Shown here piece after piece: positions 15,158 to 22,720 of a DNA stretch of 32,306 nt (positions are counted from its first letter, which is position 1; every line of letters begins with the position of its first letter). The position numbers and the translations under genes are program-made. The notes below the pieces were generated by a model. The model did not search any database. It was not told where the DNA came from and saw only the letters and a list, made by a program, of their open reading frames with translations. The stretch comes from Pseudomonadota bacterium (GTDB taxonomy: Bacteria; Pseudomonadota; Gammaproteobacteria; Steroidobacterales; Steroidobacteraceae), in the NCBI GenBank assembly GCA_947449495.1, contig CANFSB010000016.1, forward strand, positions 1-32,306, given 5' to 3'.

Positions 15158-15960
15158 TGCAGACGTTCCGGATGCGTGTAGACGACCTGTTGATGTTCGC
15201 GCGCAAAGCCTATCAGCGTGATACCAGTGGTATCGGCCAACTTGACCGCAAGCGCTGTTGGAGCAGAAACGGCCACCAGCATGCGGATGCCTACTGTTGC
15301 AGCCTTTTGCACCATCTCGTAGCTGGCTCGGCTGCTGATCAGCGCAAACCCCTCATCAAAACCTTGACCGGCACGCACTCGCGCGCCGATCACTTTATCG
15401 AGTGCGTTGTGGCGACCGACATCCTCGCGCACCAACTCGATGCGCCCCTGCCAATCAACCCAGGCCGCTGCATGCAAGCTGCCTGTCTGACCACCCAGCG
15501 GCTGCGCTGCACGCAGGGCCTGCAAGCAGTGCAGCAAGTCACTATGTGCAAGACGCCCGCCGGCTGCCACCGGTGGCGGCTGACGTATCGCATCTTCGAC
15601 GGTTTCTGCGCCACACACGCCACAGCCGGTGCGACCCGTCAGATGACGACGACGATCCAGTAGCACCGTCAATCTCTCTTGGGTTACAGAAAGACGCAGC
15701 TCCTGCCCCTGTTCAGTGACCGCGACACTTACCTCGCGAATTTCATCAGGGCGCTGTACCAAGGCCTCGCTCAGCGTGAAACCCACACCCAGGTCCTCGA
15801 GATCGCAAGGCGTCGCCAGCATGACTAGGTGGGGGATCGAGTTAAACAGCACCGCCACCGGAGTTTCCTCGGCGATGCTGTCCTCTGCACTCTCCCACTG
15901 CCCGTCACGCCAACGCCTGACGGGCAATCTAACAACCGGCGCTGCCGCGTCGCGTATCAC
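15154..15960 (-). CDS. fdhD: Formate dehydrogenase accessory sulfurtransferase FdhD
   Basis: 268 residues (called FdsC in fds operons). It has the FdhD N-terminal ETPVAVLFNSIPHLVMLATP and the functional CxxC pair in GCGVCGAETV, where sulfur is carried from a cysteine desulfurase to the bis-MGD cofactor; the sulfurated cofactor is required for activity of FdsA. The C-terminus shows EDVGRHNALDKVIG and ISSRASYEMVQKAATVG, also typical. The start is GTG at 15960, overlapping the fdsA stop by 4 bases, and it couples to fdsD in the same way. Cytoplasmic. Confidence 0.95.
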   Translation of the reverse strand: MIRDAAAPVVRLPVRRWRDGQWESAEDSIAEETPVAVLFNSIPHLVMLATPCDLEDLGVGFTLSEALVQRPDEIREVSVAVTEQGQELRLSVTQERLTVLLDRRRHLTGRTGCGVCGAETVEDAIRQPPPVAAGGRLAHSDLLHCLQALRAAQPLGGQTGSLHAAAWVDWQGRIELVREDVGRHNALDKVIGARVRAGQGFDEGFALISSRASYEMVQKAATVGIRMLVAVSAPTALAVKLADTTGITLIGFAREHQQVVYTHPERLQ

Positions 15961-18806
15961 CGCGCGGCGCGCGAATCCGGCGCAGCACGCAGCAATTGCA
16001 ACTGCTCGCGGTCGAAGTCGTGGAAGCGCTTCTGCCAGTCCGACGGCTGCTGCACCTTAGTGATCTGCACGGCAGTCACCTTGTACTCGGGGCAGTTGGT
16101 GGCCCAGTCAGAGTTATCGGTGGTGATCACATTGGCGCCCGACTCGGGGAAGTGGAAGGTGGTGTACACGACACCCGGCTGCACTCGTTCGGTAACCTCC
16201 GCACGCAACACTGTTTCGCCGGCACGGCTGGCAACACCCAGCCAGTCACCGTCGGCAACGCCGCGCTCCTGCGCATCGTGCGGATGGATTTGGAGACGGT
16301 CCTCCTGAGACCACTGACTGTTGAGCGTGCGGCGCGTTTGCGCACCGACGTTGTACTGACTGAGAATGCGGCCGGTCGTGAGGATCAGCGGGAAGCGCTT
16401 GTTGACGCGCTCCTGCGTGGCCACATATTCGGTGACATAGAAGCGACCCTTGCCACGCACGAATGCATCGATGTGCATGGTGGGCGTGCCATCCGGCGCT
16501 TCATCGTTGCAGGGCCACTGAATGCTGCCCAGACGATCCAGCTTGTCGTAGCTCACGCCAGTGAAAGTGGGCGTCAGACGGGCAATCTCATCCATGATCT
16601 GCGACGGATGCGTGTAGGGCATCTCATAGCCCAACGCACGCGCAAAGCCGATCGTCACTTCCCAGTCTGCCAAACCCGCCAGTGGCTCTACAGCCTTGCG
16701 AATGCGCGAGATGCGCCGTTCGGCATTGGTGAATGTGCCGTCCTTCTCGAGGAAGGAAGCGCCCGGGAAAAACACATGGGCGTACTTGGCTGTCTCGTTG
16801 AGGAACAGATCCTGCACGATGACGCATTCCATAGCGGTCAACGCTGCAGTGACATGCTGCGTGTTCGGATCGGACTGCGCTATATCCTCGCCCTGCACAT
16901 AGATGCCACGGAAGGTGCCGTCCAGCGCTGCCTCGAACATGTTGGGAATGCGTAGACCCGGTTCCGGATCAATATCAACACCCCAGGCATCGTTGAACAG
17001 CTTGCGTGTCACGCTGTCGGAGAGGTGGCGATAGCCGGGCAACTCGTGCGGGAACGAACCCATGTCGCAGGCGCCCTGCACATTGTTCTGACCACGCAGC
17101 GGATTGACGCCCACGCCTTCACGACCGATGTTGCCGGTGGCCATTGCCAGATTAGCGATGCCCAGCACCATGGTGCTGCCCTGACTGTGTTCGGTGACGC
17201 CCAGCCCGTAATAGATCGCGCCGTTGCCACCGGTGGCATACAGGCGAGCTGCACCACGCACCAGCTGCGCCGGCACGCCGGTGATGTCAGCTGTGGCTTC
17301 AGGCGAATGCCGCGCATCGGCAACAAATTCACGCCAGCGCTGGAACGGGCCGGGCTCGCAACGCTCGGCAACATAGGCTTCGTTGACCAAGCCTTCGGTG
17401 ACCACCACATGCGCCAGCGCATTGATGAGCGCCACATTGGTGCCCGGACGCAGCTGCAGGTGATAGTCCGCCTCAACGTGTGCCGAGCGCACCAGATCGA
17501 TGGTGCGCGGATCGGCCACGATCAGCTTGGCGCCCTCGCGCAGCCGACGCTTCAGGCGCGATGCAAACACCGGATGTCCGTCTGTGGGATTGGCGCCGAT
17601 GATCAGCGCTACATCGACTTCTTGGACGGAATCAAATGCCTGAGTACCGGCCGATTCACCCAACGTGTGCTTGAGGCCGTAACCGGTGGGCGAATGACAG
17701 ACGCGCGCGCAGGTGTCGACGTTGTTGACGCCCAGTGCCGCACGGATGACCTTGGTAACCAAGAACACTTCTTCGTTGCTGCAACGCGATGAAGTGATAC
17801 CGCCGACAGACTGGCGACCATACTTGCCCTGGATGCGGCGGAATTCGCTGGCAGCGTAGGTGAAAGCCTCATCCCAGCTGACTTCGCGCCAAGGGTCCGT
17901 GATCTTGCTGCGGATCATCGGCTTGGTAATGCGATCGGCATGCGTGGCATAGCCATAGGCAAAGCGACCCTTGACGCAGGCATGACCGCGATTGGCCTTA
18001 CCCTCACGGCTGGGCACCATGCGCACGACCTGATTGTCCTTGACCTCAGCTTCAAAGGAGCAACCCACACCGCAGTAGGCGCAGGTCGTGGTGACCGAAG
18101 TTTGCGGCTGGCCAATAGTGGCCAAGGTCTTCTCGCTGAGCGCCGCCGTCGGGCAGGACTCGACGCAAGCACCGCAAGACACGCACTCTGACTCCATGAA
18201 GGTCTGCGCTTGGCTGGCAGACACCTTTGAGCCAAAGCCGCGACCTTCAATTGTCAGGGCAAACGTGCCCTGCACTTCGCCGCAAGCACGCACGCAGCGT
18301 GAACAGGCGATGCATAGAGACGGATCAAAATTAAAATAAGGATTGCTGCTATCGCACGGTGCATCAGCATGCGTGGCACCGGCTGCATAAGGACTGGAGG
18401 TCACACCCAAGTCAGCGGCAACGCTCTGCAGTTCGCAGTGCGAATCGGCCGGGCAGCTCTTGCAGTCCAGCGGATGATCCGAGACATACAGCTCTACCAC
18501 GCCCTTGCGCAACTGCTGCAGCTTCTCGCTTTGCGTGCGCACTTTCATGCCCGGCATGACCAGCGTGGTGCAGGAGGCGGGGAAGCCGCGCTGTCCTTCA
18601 ACCTCTACCAGACACACGCGGCAGGAGCCGAAAGCCTTGAGCGTATCGGTAGCGCACAGCTTGGGAATGGCACCGCCTGCGGCGGCCGCAGCACGCATGA
18701 TCGACGTGCCTGCAGGCACAGTGACCTCTGCGCCATCGATGTTGAGAGTGACCGCCTCGCCGTTGGCGGCGGGGGTGCCCAGGTCTTCCCGGTTGATCGC
18801 GAACAT
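15957..18806 (-). CDS. fdsA: NAD+-dependent formate dehydrogenase catalytic subunit alpha
   Basis: 949 residues, full length for FdsA. N-terminal NuoG-like part: [2Fe-2S] ligands C51, C62, C65, C79; His/Cys cluster H111-C115-C118-C124; two ferredoxin-type clusters at C165-C175 (CIACSRCVRAC) and C208-C218 (CVSCGACVESC). Then a molybdopterin oxidoreductase domain with its own [4Fe-4S] site (C242, C245, C249, C277). The molybdenum ligand is cysteine C370 in ARVCHSPTG, so this is a Cys enzyme and not a selenoprotein. It oxidises formate to CO2 at Mo(bis-MGD) and passes electrons to FdsB. Start ATG at 18806 is 18 bases after fdsB. No signal peptide or twin-arginine motif, consistent with a cytosolic complex. 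Confidence 0.96.
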   Translation of the reverse strand: MFAINREDLGTPAANGEAVTLNIDGAEVTVPAGTSIMRAAAAAGGAIPKLCATDTLKAFGSCRVCLVEVEGQRGFPASCTTLVMPGMKVRTQSEKLQQLRKGVVELYVSDHPLDCKSCPADSHCELQSVAADLGVTSSPYAAGATHADAPCDSSNPYFNFDPSLCIACSRCVRACGEVQGTFALTIEGRGFGSKVSASQAQTFMESECVSCGACVESCPTAALSEKTLATIGQPQTSVTTTCAYCGVGCSFEAEVKDNQVVRMVPSREGKANRGHACVKGRFAYGYATHADRITKPMIRSKITDPWREVSWDEAFTYAASEFRRIQGKYGRQSVGGITSSRCSNEEVFLVTKVIRAALGVNNVDTCARVCHSPTGYGLKHTLGESAGTQAFDSVQEVDVALIIGANPTDGHPVFASRLKRRLREGAKLIVADPRTIDLVRSAHVEADYHLQLRPGTNVALINALAHVVVTEGLVNEAYVAERCEPGPFQRWREFVADARHSPEATADITGVPAQLVRGAARLYATGGNGAIYYGLGVTEHSQGSTMVLGIANLAMATGNIGREGVGVNPLRGQNNVQGACDMGSFPHELPGYRHLSDSVTRKLFNDAWGVDIDPEPGLRIPNMFEAALDGTFRGIYVQGEDIAQSDPNTQHVTAALTAMECVIVQDLFLNETAKYAHVFFPGASFLEKDGTFTNAERRISRIRKAVEPLAGLADWEVTIGFARALGYEMPYTHPSQIMDEIARLTPTFTGVSYDKLDRLGSIQWPCNDEAPDGTPTMHIDAFVRGKGRFYVTEYVATQERVNKRFPLILTTGRILSQYNVGAQTRRTLNSQWSQEDRLQIHPHDAQERGVADGDWLGVASRAGETVLRAEVTERVQPGVVYTTFHFPESGANVITTDNSDWATNCPEYKVTAVQITKVQQPSDWQKRFHDFDREQLQLLRAAPDSRAAR

Positions 18807-18824: not shown

Positions 18825-20357
18825 TCAGCGCTTGCGCGCGAAATCAGCTGCGAAATGCTTAACAGCGCTCATGACCGGAAACGGCGTCATGCCGCCCAGG
18901 CCACACAGCGATCCATGTTGCATCGTCTCGCAAAGGTCGGTGAGCTGGTCAATACCGCCCTGCCCTTCCTTGCCGTCGATGATGCGGTCCATCAGCTCAA
19001 CACCGCGCGTGGAACCAATGCGGCACGGTGTGCACTTGCCGCAAGATTCTGCTGCGCAGAACTCCATCGCATAGCGCGCCATGTGCGCCATATCGACGGT
19101 GTCATCAAATGCCACGATACCGCCGTGACCGACCAACGCACCGATGGCCGTAAAGGCTTCGTAGTCGAGCGGCGTATCAAATTGCGATTCGGGTATGTAT
19201 GCGCCCAGCGGGCCACCCACCTGTACTGCACGGATCGGACGACCACTGGCCGAACCTCCGCCAAAGTCGTACAGCAGTTCGCGCAGCGTGACGCCAAAGG
19301 CCTTTTCAACCAAGCCGCCATGCAGCAAGTTGCCAGCCAATTGGATCGGCAACGTGCCGCGTGAACGACCCATGCCAAAGTCGCGGTAATGCGCTGCACC
19401 GCGCTGCAGAATGACCGGCACCGATGCCAGCGAGATGACGTTGTTGATAACAGTGGGCTGGCCGAACAAGCCCTTGATGGCCGGCAACGGCGGACGGTAG
19501 CGCACCTCTGCGCGGTTGCCCTCCAGGCTTTCGAGCAATGACGTCTCTTCGCCGCAGATATAGGCGCCAGCACCCATGCGCACTTCCAGATCGAAGGCCT
19601 TGCCACTGCCGCAGACATCACGACCCAGATAGCCACGGCTACGCGCCGCTGCAATAGCCTGCTCCAGCGCGACCTGGGCATGCGGATATTCACTGCGCAG
19701 ATAGATATAGCCCTGTGTAGCACCCACCGCCACGCCGGCGATGGTCATACCTTCGACCAAGCACAGCGGATCGCCTTCCATGAGCATGCGATCAGAGAAT
19801 GTGCCGGAGTCGCCCTCGTCCGCATTGCAGACGACATACTTTTGCGCTGTCTCTTGCTGCAGCACCGTTTTCCACTTAATGCCAGTGGGGAATGCAGCAC
19901 CACCGCGACCACGCAGGCCGGAGTCGGTGACTTCCTGCACAATCGTTGCGCCATCGAGTGTCAGGGCACGCTTGAGACCTTCGTAGCCGCCATGGGCGAC
20001 ATACTCGTCAACACTGACCGGATCGATGATGCCGACGCGCGCAAAAGTGAGGCGTTCTTGCTTGGCAAAATAGGGCATGTCCTCGACACGACCCAGCCGC
20101 AGCGGATGCGGTGCGGCCTGCAACAGACCGGCACCCAACAACTCGGTCACCTGTTCTGCCATGACCGGGCCATAGGCAATGCGCTGACCCGCCGCATCGG
20201 TGACTTCAACCAGAGGTTCCAGCCACACCATGCCGCGTGAGCCCACGCGCACCAGTTCGATTTCTGCGCCAGCGGCAGCCAGCAGCGCGGCTGCAGTCTC
20301 ATCGGCGCCTAGCGCCTGTGCCGCGGCATCGCGCGAGACGTAAATACGGGTGGCCAT
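18825..20357 (-). CDS. fdsB: Formate dehydrogenase subunit beta (NuoF-like, FMN/NAD+ site)
   Basis: 510 residues. A short N-terminal thioredoxin-like segment (about 1-95) precedes the NuoF-like core. The glycine-rich FMN/NADH loop is SGLRGRGGAAFPTGIKW, the second nucleotide loop is YICGEETSLLESLEGN, and the C-terminal [4Fe-4S] cluster is in ESCGKCTPCRIGSTRG. FdsB takes electrons from FdsA through the iron-sulfur chain and reduces NAD+. Its ATG overlaps the fdsG stop by one base (TGATG), which couples their translation. Together with FdsG it resembles the electron-input module of complex I. Confidence 0.96.
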   Translation of the reverse strand: MATRIYVSRDAAAQALGADETAAALLAAAGAEIELVRVGSRGMVWLEPLVEVTDAAGQRIAYGPVMAEQVTELLGAGLLQAAPHPLRLGRVEDMPYFAKQERLTFARVGIIDPVSVDEYVAHGGYEGLKRALTLDGATIVQEVTDSGLRGRGGAAFPTGIKWKTVLQQETAQKYVVCNADEGDSGTFSDRMLMEGDPLCLVEGMTIAGVAVGATQGYIYLRSEYPHAQVALEQAIAAARSRGYLGRDVCGSGKAFDLEVRMGAGAYICGEETSLLESLEGNRAEVRYRPPLPAIKGLFGQPTVINNVISLASVPVILQRGAAHYRDFGMGRSRGTLPIQLAGNLLHGGLVEKAFGVTLRELLYDFGGGSASGRPIRAVQVGGPLGAYIPESQFDTPLDYEAFTAIGALVGHGGIVAFDDTVDMAHMARYAMEFCAAESCGKCTPCRIGSTRGVELMDRIIDGKEGQGGIDQLTDLCETMQHGSLCGLGGMTPFPVMSAVKHFAADFARKR

Positions 20358-20833
20358 CAGCGCTTGCTCCAGTCATCAAGAACAGTATCGAGACGCTGCG
20401 GCGTTACGCGGCCATACAATTTGCCATCGACCATGACAGACGGGCCAGCCGCACAATTGCCAAGGCAATAAGCGGCTTCAAGCGTGAAACAACCATCGGC
20501 GGAAGTGCCGCCATAGTCCACACCCAAACGCTTTTGGGCATGCGCTTCGGTAGCCTGACAATTCCAAGCCTGACAGGCTTCGGCGCGACAGACCTGAACG
20601 ATATGGCGACCCACCGGGTGGGTGCGGAAATGATGATAGAAACTGACCACGCCGTGCACATCGGCACGCGACAGGTTCAGTCCCAGGGCAATCTGGGCGA
20701 TGGCCTCAGATGGGATCCAGCCCAGCTGATTTTGCACATCGTGCAGCACAGGCAGGAGAGGTCCGGGACGCCCTGCGTGGGCGGCCAGGATACGGTCGAC
20801 GGTGAGCGTGTGCTCTGAGTCAATTTCAGCCAT
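20357..20833 (-). CDS. fdsG: Formate dehydrogenase subunit gamma (NuoE-like)
   Basis: 158 residues from the ATG at 20833. The frame could extend to a TTG at 20875, but the shorter start matches the family better. Its thioredoxin-fold [2Fe-2S] ligands are C-x4-C in VCRAEACQAW and C-x3-C in YCLGNCAAGP, and GVVSFYHHFRTHPVG is the typical NuoE/FdsG centre. It joins FdsB in the NAD+-reducing module. It is the first gene of fdsGBA-fdhD-fdsD. The upstream leader (20834-20990) carries a palindrome array and a GC hairpin, so regulation probably acts there. Confidence 0.95.
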   Translation of the reverse strand: MAEIDSEHTLTVDRILAAHAGRPGPLLPVLHDVQNQLGWIPSEAIAQIALGLNLSRADVHGVVSFYHHFRTHPVGRHIVQVCRAEACQAWNCQATEAHAQKRLGVDYGGTSADGCFTLEAAYCLGNCAAGPSVMVDGKLYGRVTPQRLDTVLDDWSKR

Positions 20834-20853
20834 TTGTCGCTGCAAACCTCTAT

Positions 20854-20871
20854 CCGGCGAGAAGACGCCGG
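20854..20871 (-). promoter_or_regulatory. GC hairpin in the fds leader
   Basis: CCGGCG and CGCCGG (20854-20859, 20866-20871) flank a 6-base loop, giving a strong six-pair stem about 20 bases before the fdsG start. There is no T-run, so it is not an evident terminator. It may affect translation or mRNA stability of the operon. Confidence 0.35.
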
Positions 20872-20905
20872 GCAACGCTTGGGAGGTTAGCAGGGATCGC
20901 GGTCA

Positions 20906-20917
20906 GGTAACTAGCAA
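20906..20917 (-). promoter_or_regulatory. Candidate shared regulatory element, fds copy
   Basis: The plus-strand GGTAACTAGCAA here and GGTAGTTAGCAA at 21460-21471 match at 10 of 12 bases, and each has GGTCA close upstream. The two differing cores, TAACTA and TAGTTA read on one strand, are reverse complements of each other, as expected for a symmetric protein site. One copy lies before fdsG and one before marR. Confidence 0.35.
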
Positions 20918-20930
20918 ACAAGGAGAGAAA

Positions 20931-20959
20931 GATCCCAAATCTGGATTTGGGATCCCAAA
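20931..20959. promoter_or_regulatory. Palindrome array upstream of the formate dehydrogenase operon
   Basis: GATCCCAAATC (20931-20941) and GATTTGGGATC (20944-20954) form an 11-base perfect inverted repeat with a 2-base centre. The right arm is itself the left half of a second perfect palindrome, TTTGGGATCCCAAA (20946-20959). GATCCCAAA therefore recurs exactly 20 bases apart (20931 and 20951), about two helical turns, with an inverted copy between. This geometry suits cooperative binding of a dimeric regulator. On the minus strand the hairpin is followed by a pyrimidine-rich TTTCTCTCC, so a marR terminator is the alternative reading. Confidence 0.55.
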
Positions 20960-20990
20960 ATACGCCCTGTCGCGGGAGACCTACAACACC

Positions 20991-21434
20991 TTAAGGCCGG
21001 ATGCGCTGCAACAGGTGGATCAGTTGATCGCGCTCGGCGGGCTCGAACAGACCATCGAAAGCCTGCTCGCAGGTGCGCATGCCCTGCTTGAGTGACTCCA
21101 GATGATCCACACCGGTAGGCGTGATGAACAGGCCATGACGGCGACGGTCGGTCGTAGCGCGCTGACGCTGCAACCATCCGGCACCCTCTGCGCGGTCTAC
21201 CAACGCAACCACGCTGGCCTTATCGATGGTGAGGTGACGGGACACCTGGATTTGCGAAATGCCAGGGTTGGCACAGCACAGCACCAGCAAGCCGAAGATC
21301 CCTGAACCGGGATCGCCGCCTGGAGTGACCCGGGCCAATTGCCGCTGCAGCGCCAACTGCGCGCAGCGGAGGTTATATCCCAGCAGGTGGGGGAGCAGGT
21401 CGAGATTGACCTCTTGATCGAGAAGCATGGGCAT
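20991..21434 (-). CDS. MarR family regulator between adhC and the fds operon
   Basis: 147 residues, MarR-type winged helix. The recognition region is NPGISQIQVSRHLTIDKASV, followed by the wing containing RQRATTDRRRHGLFITPTG. Ligand and target are not known for this protein. It lies on the same strand between the formaldehyde and formate dehydrogenases, so a role as C1-oxidation repressor or sensor is the natural guess. The ATG at 21434 is listed. A second ATG at 21428 (residue 3) has AGG 7 bases upstream and may be the true start. It could be autoregulated through the element at 21460-21471. Confidence 0.87.
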   Translation of the reverse strand: MPMLLDQEVNLDLLPHLLGYNLRCAQLALQRQLARVTPGGDPGSGIFGLLVLCCANPGISQIQVSRHLTIDKASVVALVDRAEGAGWLQRQRATTDRRRHGLFITPTGVDHLESLKQGMRTCEQAFDGLFEPAERDQLIHLLQRIRP

Positions 21435-21459
21435 ACCTGATGGTGAGGTGGGTCACCAA

Positions 21460-21471
21460 GGTAGTTAGCAA
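21460..21471 (-). promoter_or_regulatory. Candidate shared regulatory element, marR copy
   Basis: GGTAGTTAGCAA lies 26-37 bases before the marR start and matches the fds copy at 20906-20917. A -10-like CATAAA (minus strand, 21474-21479) is just upstream, so the element would straddle the start of transcription, a usual position for an autorepressor site. Confidence 0.35.
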
Positions 21472-21505
21472 TCTTTATGCCATGAAAATTTTGCCTGTTC
21501 CCTGC

Positions 21506-21607: not shown

Positions 21608-22720
21608 TTAGTACACCACCACCGAACGGATGGACTCGCCTTCATGCATCAGATGGAAGGCATCGTTGATCTTGTCGAGCGGCATGGTGTGGGTGATCAG
21701 CTCGTCAATGCGGATCTTGCCCTCCATGTACCAGTCGACAATCTTGGGCACGTCTGTGCGGCCGCGAGCACCACCGAAGGCACTGCCCTTCCATACGCGT
21801 CCCGTCACCAACTGGAACGGGCGTGTGGCGATTTCCTGACCCGCTTCGGCCACGCCGATGATGATCGACTGGCCCCAACCACGATGGCAGCACTCCAACG
21901 CCTGACGCATGACCTGGGTATTGCCGGTGCAGTCAAACGAGTAGTCGGCGCCGCCGCCGGTCAGGTCAACGATGGCTTGCACCACTTTGTCGTTGCCCAC
22001 TTCGCGCGGGTTGACGAAGTGCGTCATGCCAAAGGCTTCGGCCATGGCGCGCTTGGCCGGGTTGATATCCACGCCGATGATCTTGTCGGCGCCAACCATC
22101 TTGGCGCCCTGAATGACGTTGAGACCAATGCCACCCAGACCAAACACCACGACATTGGTGCCCGGCTCAACCTTGGCGGTGTAGAGGACAGCACCGATGC
22201 CGGTGGTTACGCCGCAGCCGATGTAGCAGACCTTATCGAAGGGCGCATCCTCGCGGATCTTGGCCACGGCGATCTCTGGCAGCACGGTGAAGTTGCTGAA
22301 GGTCGAGCAGCCCATGTAGTGATAAATGGTCTCTTTGCCCAGCGAAAAGCGGCTGGTGCCATCGGGCATCAGACCCTTGCCCTGCGTGGAGCGAATCGCG
22401 GTGCACAGGTTGGACTTGCGGCTCAAGCAGGTCTTGCAGCCGCGGCACTCGGGCGTATAGAGCGGGATCACATGATCGCCAGGCTTGACGCTGGTCACAC
22501 CCGCGCCGATTTCGCGCACGATTCCGGCGCCCTCATGACCCAGGATTGAGGGGAACACGCCCTCAGAGTCCTTGCCAGACAACGTGTAGTAATCGGTATG
22601 GCAAATACCAGTTGCCATGATCTCAACCAGCACCTCTCCGGGAGCCGGACCATCGAGATTCACCTCGTGGATCTCCAAAGGCTTACCGGCGCCAACTGCC
22701 AGTGCTGCACGTGTCTTCAT
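21608..22720 (-). CDS. adhC: S-(hydroxymethyl)glutathione dehydrogenase / class III alcohol dehydrogenase
   Basis: 370 residues, full-length class III zinc alcohol dehydrogenase (also called FrmA or AdhC). Catalytic zinc residues are in [12 protein letters not shown] and LGHEGAGIV; the structural zinc is held by the cysteines of [15 protein letters not shown]. The Rossmann motif is [20 protein letters not shown], and [11 protein letters not shown] follows. It oxidises S-hydroxymethylglutathione, formed from formaldehyde and glutathione, to S-formylglutathione with NAD+. GAGGGA lies 6 bases before the ATG at 22720. The companion S-formylglutathione hydrolase is not in the window. Formate released downstream would feed the fds complex encoded on the same strand. 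Confidence 0.95.

Follow-up and report, generated by a model that had tools for sequence, protein, structure and literature searches.

Bacteria that use methoxylated lignin fragments must shed one carbon per methoxyl group, and enzymes of the DesA/LigM type demethylate methoxylated aromatics by handing the methyl group to tetrahydrofolate (THF). To our knowledge, how formate oxidation is matched to this one-carbon (C1) supply has rarely been described. The VanR/Pvan system of Caulobacter crescentus targets an oxygenase-type vanAB system; we know of no link between it and formate dehydrogenase, and ATTGGATCCAAT is presumably its VanR box. In the available part of a paper using the vanillate promoter, ATTGGATCCAAT lies beside TTGAC in a Caulobacter construct (PMC6538847), and we read the two as the promoter part of that construct.

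A regulator of the VanR group of FCD-type GntR proteins, Atu1419 of Agrobacterium fabrum (PDB 6z74 and others), is described as a tetramer that represses its own gene along with those of a THF-dependent vanillate O-demethylase and a MetF-like protein; N5,N10-methylene-THF releases it. Its Arg45 reads G3 of the palindrome and its Thr46 contacts A5 on the other strand (available text of PMC7797058). No formate dehydrogenase is mentioned among its targets in the portion of the main text available, where the word 'formate' does not occur (PMC7797058). DesR of Sphingobium sp. SYK-6, which represses ligM of the ligM-metF-ligH operon, likewise joins O-demethylation to C1 metabolism, but according to the available sections of its description it is of the MarR type, recognizes the inverted repeat GTTTGTGTAACATAC and responds to vanillate and syringate (PMC6888825).

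We analyzed a 32,306-nucleotide stretch of a Steroidobacteraceae genome (hereafter, the window) that carries the genes adhC, marR, fdsG, fdsB and fdsA in this order, all on the minus strand. The genes are as follows.

21608–22720, minus strand: adhC/frmA, S-(hydroxymethyl)glutathione dehydrogenase (TIGR02818, 614 bits; cut-off 544).
20991–21434, minus strand: MarR-family regulator gene (Pfam MarR) between adhC and fdsG; its product is not the likely binder of the array described below.
20357–20833, minus strand: fdsG, formate dehydrogenase gamma subunit, NuoE-like (NF004638, 219 bits; cut-off 198).
18825–20357, minus strand: fdsB, NuoF-like subunit (best NCBIfam match the nuoF family, 429 bits, under its cut-off of 559), named fdsB because of its place in the operon.
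15957–18806, minus strand: fdsA, formate dehydrogenase alpha subunit (TIGR01591, 930 bits; cut-off 666).

The gap between marR and the fdsG ATG (20834–20990) is 157 bases long and contains an array of three half-sites, which a direct read of 20931–20959 confirmed with its 20-bp period. The sequence GATCCCAAA occurs at 20931–20939 and 20951–20959, the two direct copies being exactly 20 bases apart, and an inverted half-site copy, TTTGGGATC, occupies 20946–20954. The original prediction had described two perfect palindromes with a common arm. The common arm is real, but only one of the two elements is a gapless palindrome, the perfect 14-bp TTTGGGATCCCAAA at 20946–20959, one arm of which is shared with the third half-site 20 bp away; the other, at 20931–20954, is a gapped inverted repeat whose 11-nt arms match perfectly and flank a loop of 2 nt. 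Because the full-palindrome score at 20931–20939 by the position weight matrix (PWM) introduced below is only -1.2, we regard that element as a half-site only. The array comprises the following features.

20945–20960, minus strand: candidate primary operator, the 16-bp TTTTGGGATCCCAAAT on the fds strand with the core TGGGATCCCA (score 23.6 by the PWM, a matrix from sites upstream of GntR genes).
20931–20939, minus strand: third half-site, reading TTTGGGATC on this strand (direct read); the corresponding half of the primary palindrome is 20 bp away.
20931–20954, minus strand: inverted repeat and potential hairpin in a putative transcript from marR into fds (two G-U pairs in a predicted stem of 12 bp; -14.7 kcal/mol).

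The suspicion that this arrangement exceeds chance was borne out. A perfect 14-bp palindrome appeared in 0.8% of order-1 resamplings of the 157-base gap. In 2.14 Mb of the sister genome (G021), there were 278 perfect 14-bp palindromes and 44 inverted repeats with an arm of at least 11 and a loop of at most 8, and an inverted repeat sharing its arm region with a palindrome of different center was found once, at the fds site. The repeat at 20931–20954 is the sole one of such size within the window, and the array is identical in the window genome and G021, although the bases just upstream differ. As for other classes of element, the only match to an Rfam RNA family was a sub-threshold snoRNA elsewhere in the stretch, and this assignment was rejected.

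In the window's own genome (G000), the array palindrome occurs with at most two mismatches at just two other places. One of them, on contig C94, is directly upstream of a gene (G000:C94:2994-3695) whose product starts with MSSHLTHAIVRIREMILRGEL. This product is a GntR/FCD protein (Pfam GntR, 57.5 bits; FCD, 53.5 bits; both over the cut-off), and a THF-dependent O-demethylase gene lies immediately downstream. The regulator gene of the window genome has CGGGATCCCAAATTGACATTACGGGATCCGG, and its own promoter holds one palindrome between the -35 and -10 elements (TTGACA-17-TACCTT). When the genus was searched with the gap sequence, two weak matches emerged in another genome, G104 (E 0.046 and 3.6), and these revealed the same array upstream of related genes; there, on contig C121, GGGATCCC-GAATTGACA-GTTCGGGATCCC forms two palindromes 21 bp apart around TTGACA. 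Across the whole own genome (2.58 Mb), the motif YGGGATCCCR is present at three places: before fdsG, before gntR-desA, and before ligM, where it occupies C96:4891-4900, 66 bases upstream of a second O-demethylase match (C96:4967). Given the first match at the regulator, the chance that the remaining copy falls within 100 bp of the second O-demethylase gene is about 4 in 100,000, by post hoc arithmetic (100 divided by 2.58 million).

Over 215 residues, the regulator shares 40% identity with Atu1419 (E 3.8e-40), which is its best PDB match. As expected of an Atu1419-type repressor, the regulator gene is linked to a THF-dependent O-demethylase gene, the DesA/LigM-like gene directly downstream. 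The DNA-reading residues Ser44, Arg45 and Arg49 of Atu1419 are kept in the regulator, whereas Met takes the place of Thr46, a contact residue, in both sister species, and Glu50 of the reading helix is Gln. In the effector pocket, five of six residues are identical (Arg86, Tyr133, Asn137, His141 and His214), and Asn221 is replaced by Ser; His192 is also kept, and our guess is that it is another zinc histidine. At the DNA level, the Atu1419 palindrome is ATGTATACAT and that found here TGGGATCCCA: the operator keeps G3 and A5 but differs at positions 2 and 4. The spacing also differs, since the two Atu1419 sites are 190 bp apart in the available text and those found here 20–21 bp. The Caulobacter sequence ATTGGATCCAAT is centered on GGATCC, as is the palindrome found here, and in the part of the construct described its flanks lack one G-C pair; this sequence beside TTGAC fits the VanR group.

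These results suggest that the array is probably an operator bound by the VanR-type GntR/FCD repressor encoded at G000:C94:2994-3695, a known kind of operator with a new target, fdsGBA. The original prediction had considered a distant formate regulator of the GntR or LysR type. A GntR operator agrees with the match between the array motif and the palindromes upstream of the GntR/FCD gene, but a dedicated formate regulator does not fit, since the gene sits with THF-dependent O-demethylase genes.

We then compared relatives of the regulator within the family. There were 20 matches at E ≤ 1e-40, from 18 of the 200 family genomes. A site centered on GGATCC lay within 160 bp upstream of the GntR gene in 18 of the 20, in one case only at -148, and nine had two such sites 20–21 bp apart. 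Of the other two matches, one had no site, and the other, a 40% identical protein, had GTATAC palindromes 19 bp apart. Helix position 50 holds Gln in each of the 19 closer relatives in the alignment, 18 of which have a GGATCC site and one no site; Atu1419 has Glu there, and the GTATAC relative has Ala. At the latter locus (L213, G141:C127), the combination of GTATAC palindromes with Ala at position 50, against GGATCC with Gln in closer relatives, possibly represents a natural specificity switch, judging from the alignment. The operator pair GGATCC/GTATAC, together with Gln50 versus Glu or Ala, offers a test of specificity within the VanR group. At five regulator loci of genus g19, a second YGGGATCCCR is found 142–156 bp away, a distance reminiscent of the Atu1419 looping pair, whose sites are 190 bp apart.

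A PWM was built from the regulator-gene sites (28 listed), leaving out the two of G021 and using no fds site, and 2.14 Mb of the approximately 2.8-Mb G021 genome was scanned. The fds site ranked first (23.6), followed by gntR (21.1), a TonB-receptor gene (20.9) and ligM (18.0). The rank of gntR is not independent, because near-identical own-genome sites trained the matrix, and the comparison of fds with gntR is not fully blind, the GntR gene having been found through its match to the fds motif. In 20 order-2 null replicates of equal length, the mean number of hits above 17.9 was 0.5 and none exceeded 20.9, against four and three hits in G021, respectively. Above the lower score of 15, the count of eight G021 sites was not above the nulls (1, 3 and 8 in order-1 sequences; mean 3.2 and maximum 9 in order-2). 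The three G021 sites that rank next lie inside coding frames; sites so placed, at C11, C20 and C34:46629, were treated as chance; the site readings cover the set other than C13:78636 and C13:351493. The ligM and gntR sites fall within, or at the margin of, frames extended mechanically, yet upstream of the starts set by homology. Both in the own genome (3 in 2.58 Mb) and in the same 2.14 Mb of G021 (5 observed, 16 expected from independent bases), YGGGATCCCR is rarer than base composition predicts, whereas in G021 GGGATCCC is not scarce relative to a 7-mer expectation (8 versus 6.9). At ligM the extra half-site lies 12 bases away and not 20–21, which means that targets differ in spacing. G021 and the own genome also share a third GGGATC-N15-GGGATC pair (C5:58571 in the own genome), which was set aside because it lies within an open frame in G000.

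The fds and gntR sites thus have the same motif and a similar spacing (20–21 bp at gntR), and the site set of the own genome is fdsGBA, gntR-desA and ligM. A different regulator with the same half-site, such as another GntR/FCD paralogue, might lie behind the matches at these three places; further FCD proteins may be encoded in the genome, and the specificity assigned here is that suggested by upstream conservation. We consider this quite improbable, because the palindrome stays with relatives of one GntR protein across several genera, as autoregulation predicts.

The inverted repeat could instead be an intrinsic terminator or attenuator that ends the adhC-marR transcript before fdsG. On the marR strand, its stem (z -2.0) begins about 35 nt past the marR stop and is followed by UCUCUCC, and the entire 157-nt gap folded as RNA has a z of -3.0. 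However, a terminator scan of the region found none, the stem is A-T rich and the tail C-rich, and the extended arms coincide with the operator consensus ATTTGGGATCCCAAAT. Moreover, the same palindrome is present upstream of gntR and ligM, and a terminator would serve no purpose there. Folding is also predicted at gntR (-14.2 kcal/mol, z -1.7) and ligM (-9.8 kcal/mol, z -0.4), as is inevitable for paired palindromes. The fds hairpin accordingly looks like, and probably is, a by-product of half-site geometry. We therefore hold a terminator to be unlikely; an operator at this position may incidentally weaken read-through.

The adjacent MarR protein had also been proposed as the binder. Its gene borders the array, and MarR proteins bind palindromes of similar length. 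The exact 9-base half-site is nevertheless found neither upstream of marR nor at any of 28 loci that carry MarR relatives in genomes other than the two sisters (up to about 1.5 kb on each side), and the motif is already accounted for by the GntR protein. This assignment was abandoned as very improbable.

Conservation of the fds site was then assessed. A true FdsG is encoded in eight of the nine genus genomes, and the site is present in two of the eight, the window genome and its sister, and absent from the other six. Conservation in orthologous upstream regions, a check put forward with the original prediction, thus holds for the sister only. Among 79 scored fdsG upstream regions of named genomes (80 loci, one of them without upstream sequence), the site was found only at L051, which is the G021 locus; the next best score was 11.4. 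Wide conservation of the site upstream of fdsG was rejected on the basis of these two surveys. In four genomes outside the genus (G155, G174, G184 and G192), the contig carrying fdsG has no YGGGATCCCR except for one copy about 14 kb away in G192. The ligM-counterpart O-demethylase genes of G056 and G104 also have no site (G040, G071 and G082 being left out of this comparison). Since the site is absent at fds in six genomes and at ligM in these two, only the sites of the gntR genes are widely conserved. This pattern suggests that the regulator's own site is old and that fds control looks like a recent gain.

A narrow distribution could also mean that the palindrome arose by chance or survives from a repeated element. 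The fds array is limited to two sister genomes, and exact copies of TTTGGGATCCCAAA exist in two family genomes, G005 (one copy) and G023 (two copies), that have no GntR match at E ≤ 1e-40; no gene of the regulator or O-demethylase kind is linked to these copies. Such an origin is nonetheless extremely improbable: the array geometry is unique, the array is unchanged in both sisters despite the flank differences, and it has the top PWM score in 2.14 Mb. A repeated or mobile element was rejected because the own genome has no second array copy. One of the copies in G023 (L139, G023:C5:11912-11925) is the center of a longer perfect palindrome, GCATGCGCTTTGGGATCCCAAAGCGCATGC, and is probably an unrelated structure.

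Binding of the VanR-type GntR repressor to the array would place one dimer on the full palindrome, while the third half-site, about two helical turns away, would be taken by a second dimer or by the remaining half of a tetramer. A promoter scan of the fds gap gave no sigma-70-type promoter at threshold, and in a second -35/-10 scan no candidate matched at more than 7 of 12 positions, or 8 with an extended -10 included. One weak candidate, at 7 of 12, is TTGGGA-17-GCTAGT, and the third half-site would cover its -35. A canonical promoter in the gap was thus rejected, neither scan having given a convincing match, and since the gap has no good promoter, repression at fds is inferred: bound GntR protein would repress fdsGBA either through occlusion or by stopping read-through that comes from marR.

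Downstream of the regulator, the DesA/LigM-like gene scores 733 bits against a syringate O-demethylase model, short of the cut-off of 800, and the second O-demethylase gene passes the cut-off of the vanillate/3-O-methylgallate O-demethylase (LigM) model (777 versus 580). In the available text on strain SYK-6, the methyl group is thought to be routed via MetF, FolD and LigH (PMC6888825). Rough signature expressions gave matches of the FolD and formyl-THF-synthetase types in G021, and none of the PurU and MetF types in its scanned part. Formyl-THF synthetase run backwards would yield formate, the substrate of FdsGBA.

The fds palindromes resemble the site of the O-demethylase regulator, so disposal of one-carbon waste is probably switched on together with its production. 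In the circuit that we envisage, demethylation of methoxylated aromatics would load the THF pool with methyl groups; methylene-THF, the effector suggested by homology with Atu1419, would free the repressor; the demethylases and formate dehydrogenase would then be co-induced; and formate would be drained from the folate pool to CO2 with a gain of NADH. This full feed-forward circuit, drawn by analogy, is a tentative proposal. In the same guarded sense, the soluble formate dehydrogenase could have been recruited, in one lineage, into a methylene-THF-sensing O-demethylation regulon, through acquisition of the operator between marR and fdsG once the genus had diverged, so that one folate sensor would control both C1 entry (aryl-methyl removal) and C1 exit (formate oxidation). 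If so, a folate-sensing repressor at both ends would make a simple supply-demand circuit. Literature searches with the letters of the palindrome mostly gave unrelated primer matches. In separate full-text searches, no title or abstract opening among the papers listed named a GntR or VanR protein that ties O-demethylation to formate dehydrogenase.

The operator copy at the TonB-receptor gene of G021 (L261, G021:C34:35087; score 20.9) lies 58 bp upstream of a gene assigned to TonB-dependent receptors by Pfam, possibly an uptake receptor for methoxylated aromatics. Since fds, gntR and ligM account for every YGGGATCCCR copy of the own genome, this target is either missing or altered in that genome, or else not assembled. 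At another G021 locus (L185, G021:C10:256836-264278), genes for LigM, a bacterial globin, a TonB receptor, the GntR regulator and a DesA-like protein lie on one strand, with operators before ligM and gntR.

Two elements upstream of marR were also observed. The sequence TTGCTAACTACCT (21459–21471) agrees at 11 of 13 bases with TTGCTAGTTACCT upstream of fdsG (20905–20917), both on the minus strand; by this resemblance the pair is possibly a MarR site, though by our estimate the agreement is near chance for the lengths compared. On the same strand, TGGCATAAAGATTGCT (21467–21482) resembles a sigma-54 promoter. In G040, G082 and G056, the genes of the nearest MarR relatives are preceded by TGGCACAGCGTTTGCT, TGGCACAACCCTTGCT and TGGCACAGCCTTTGCT, respectively. 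A marR gene driven by sigma-54 beside formaldehyde and formate genes would be unusual.
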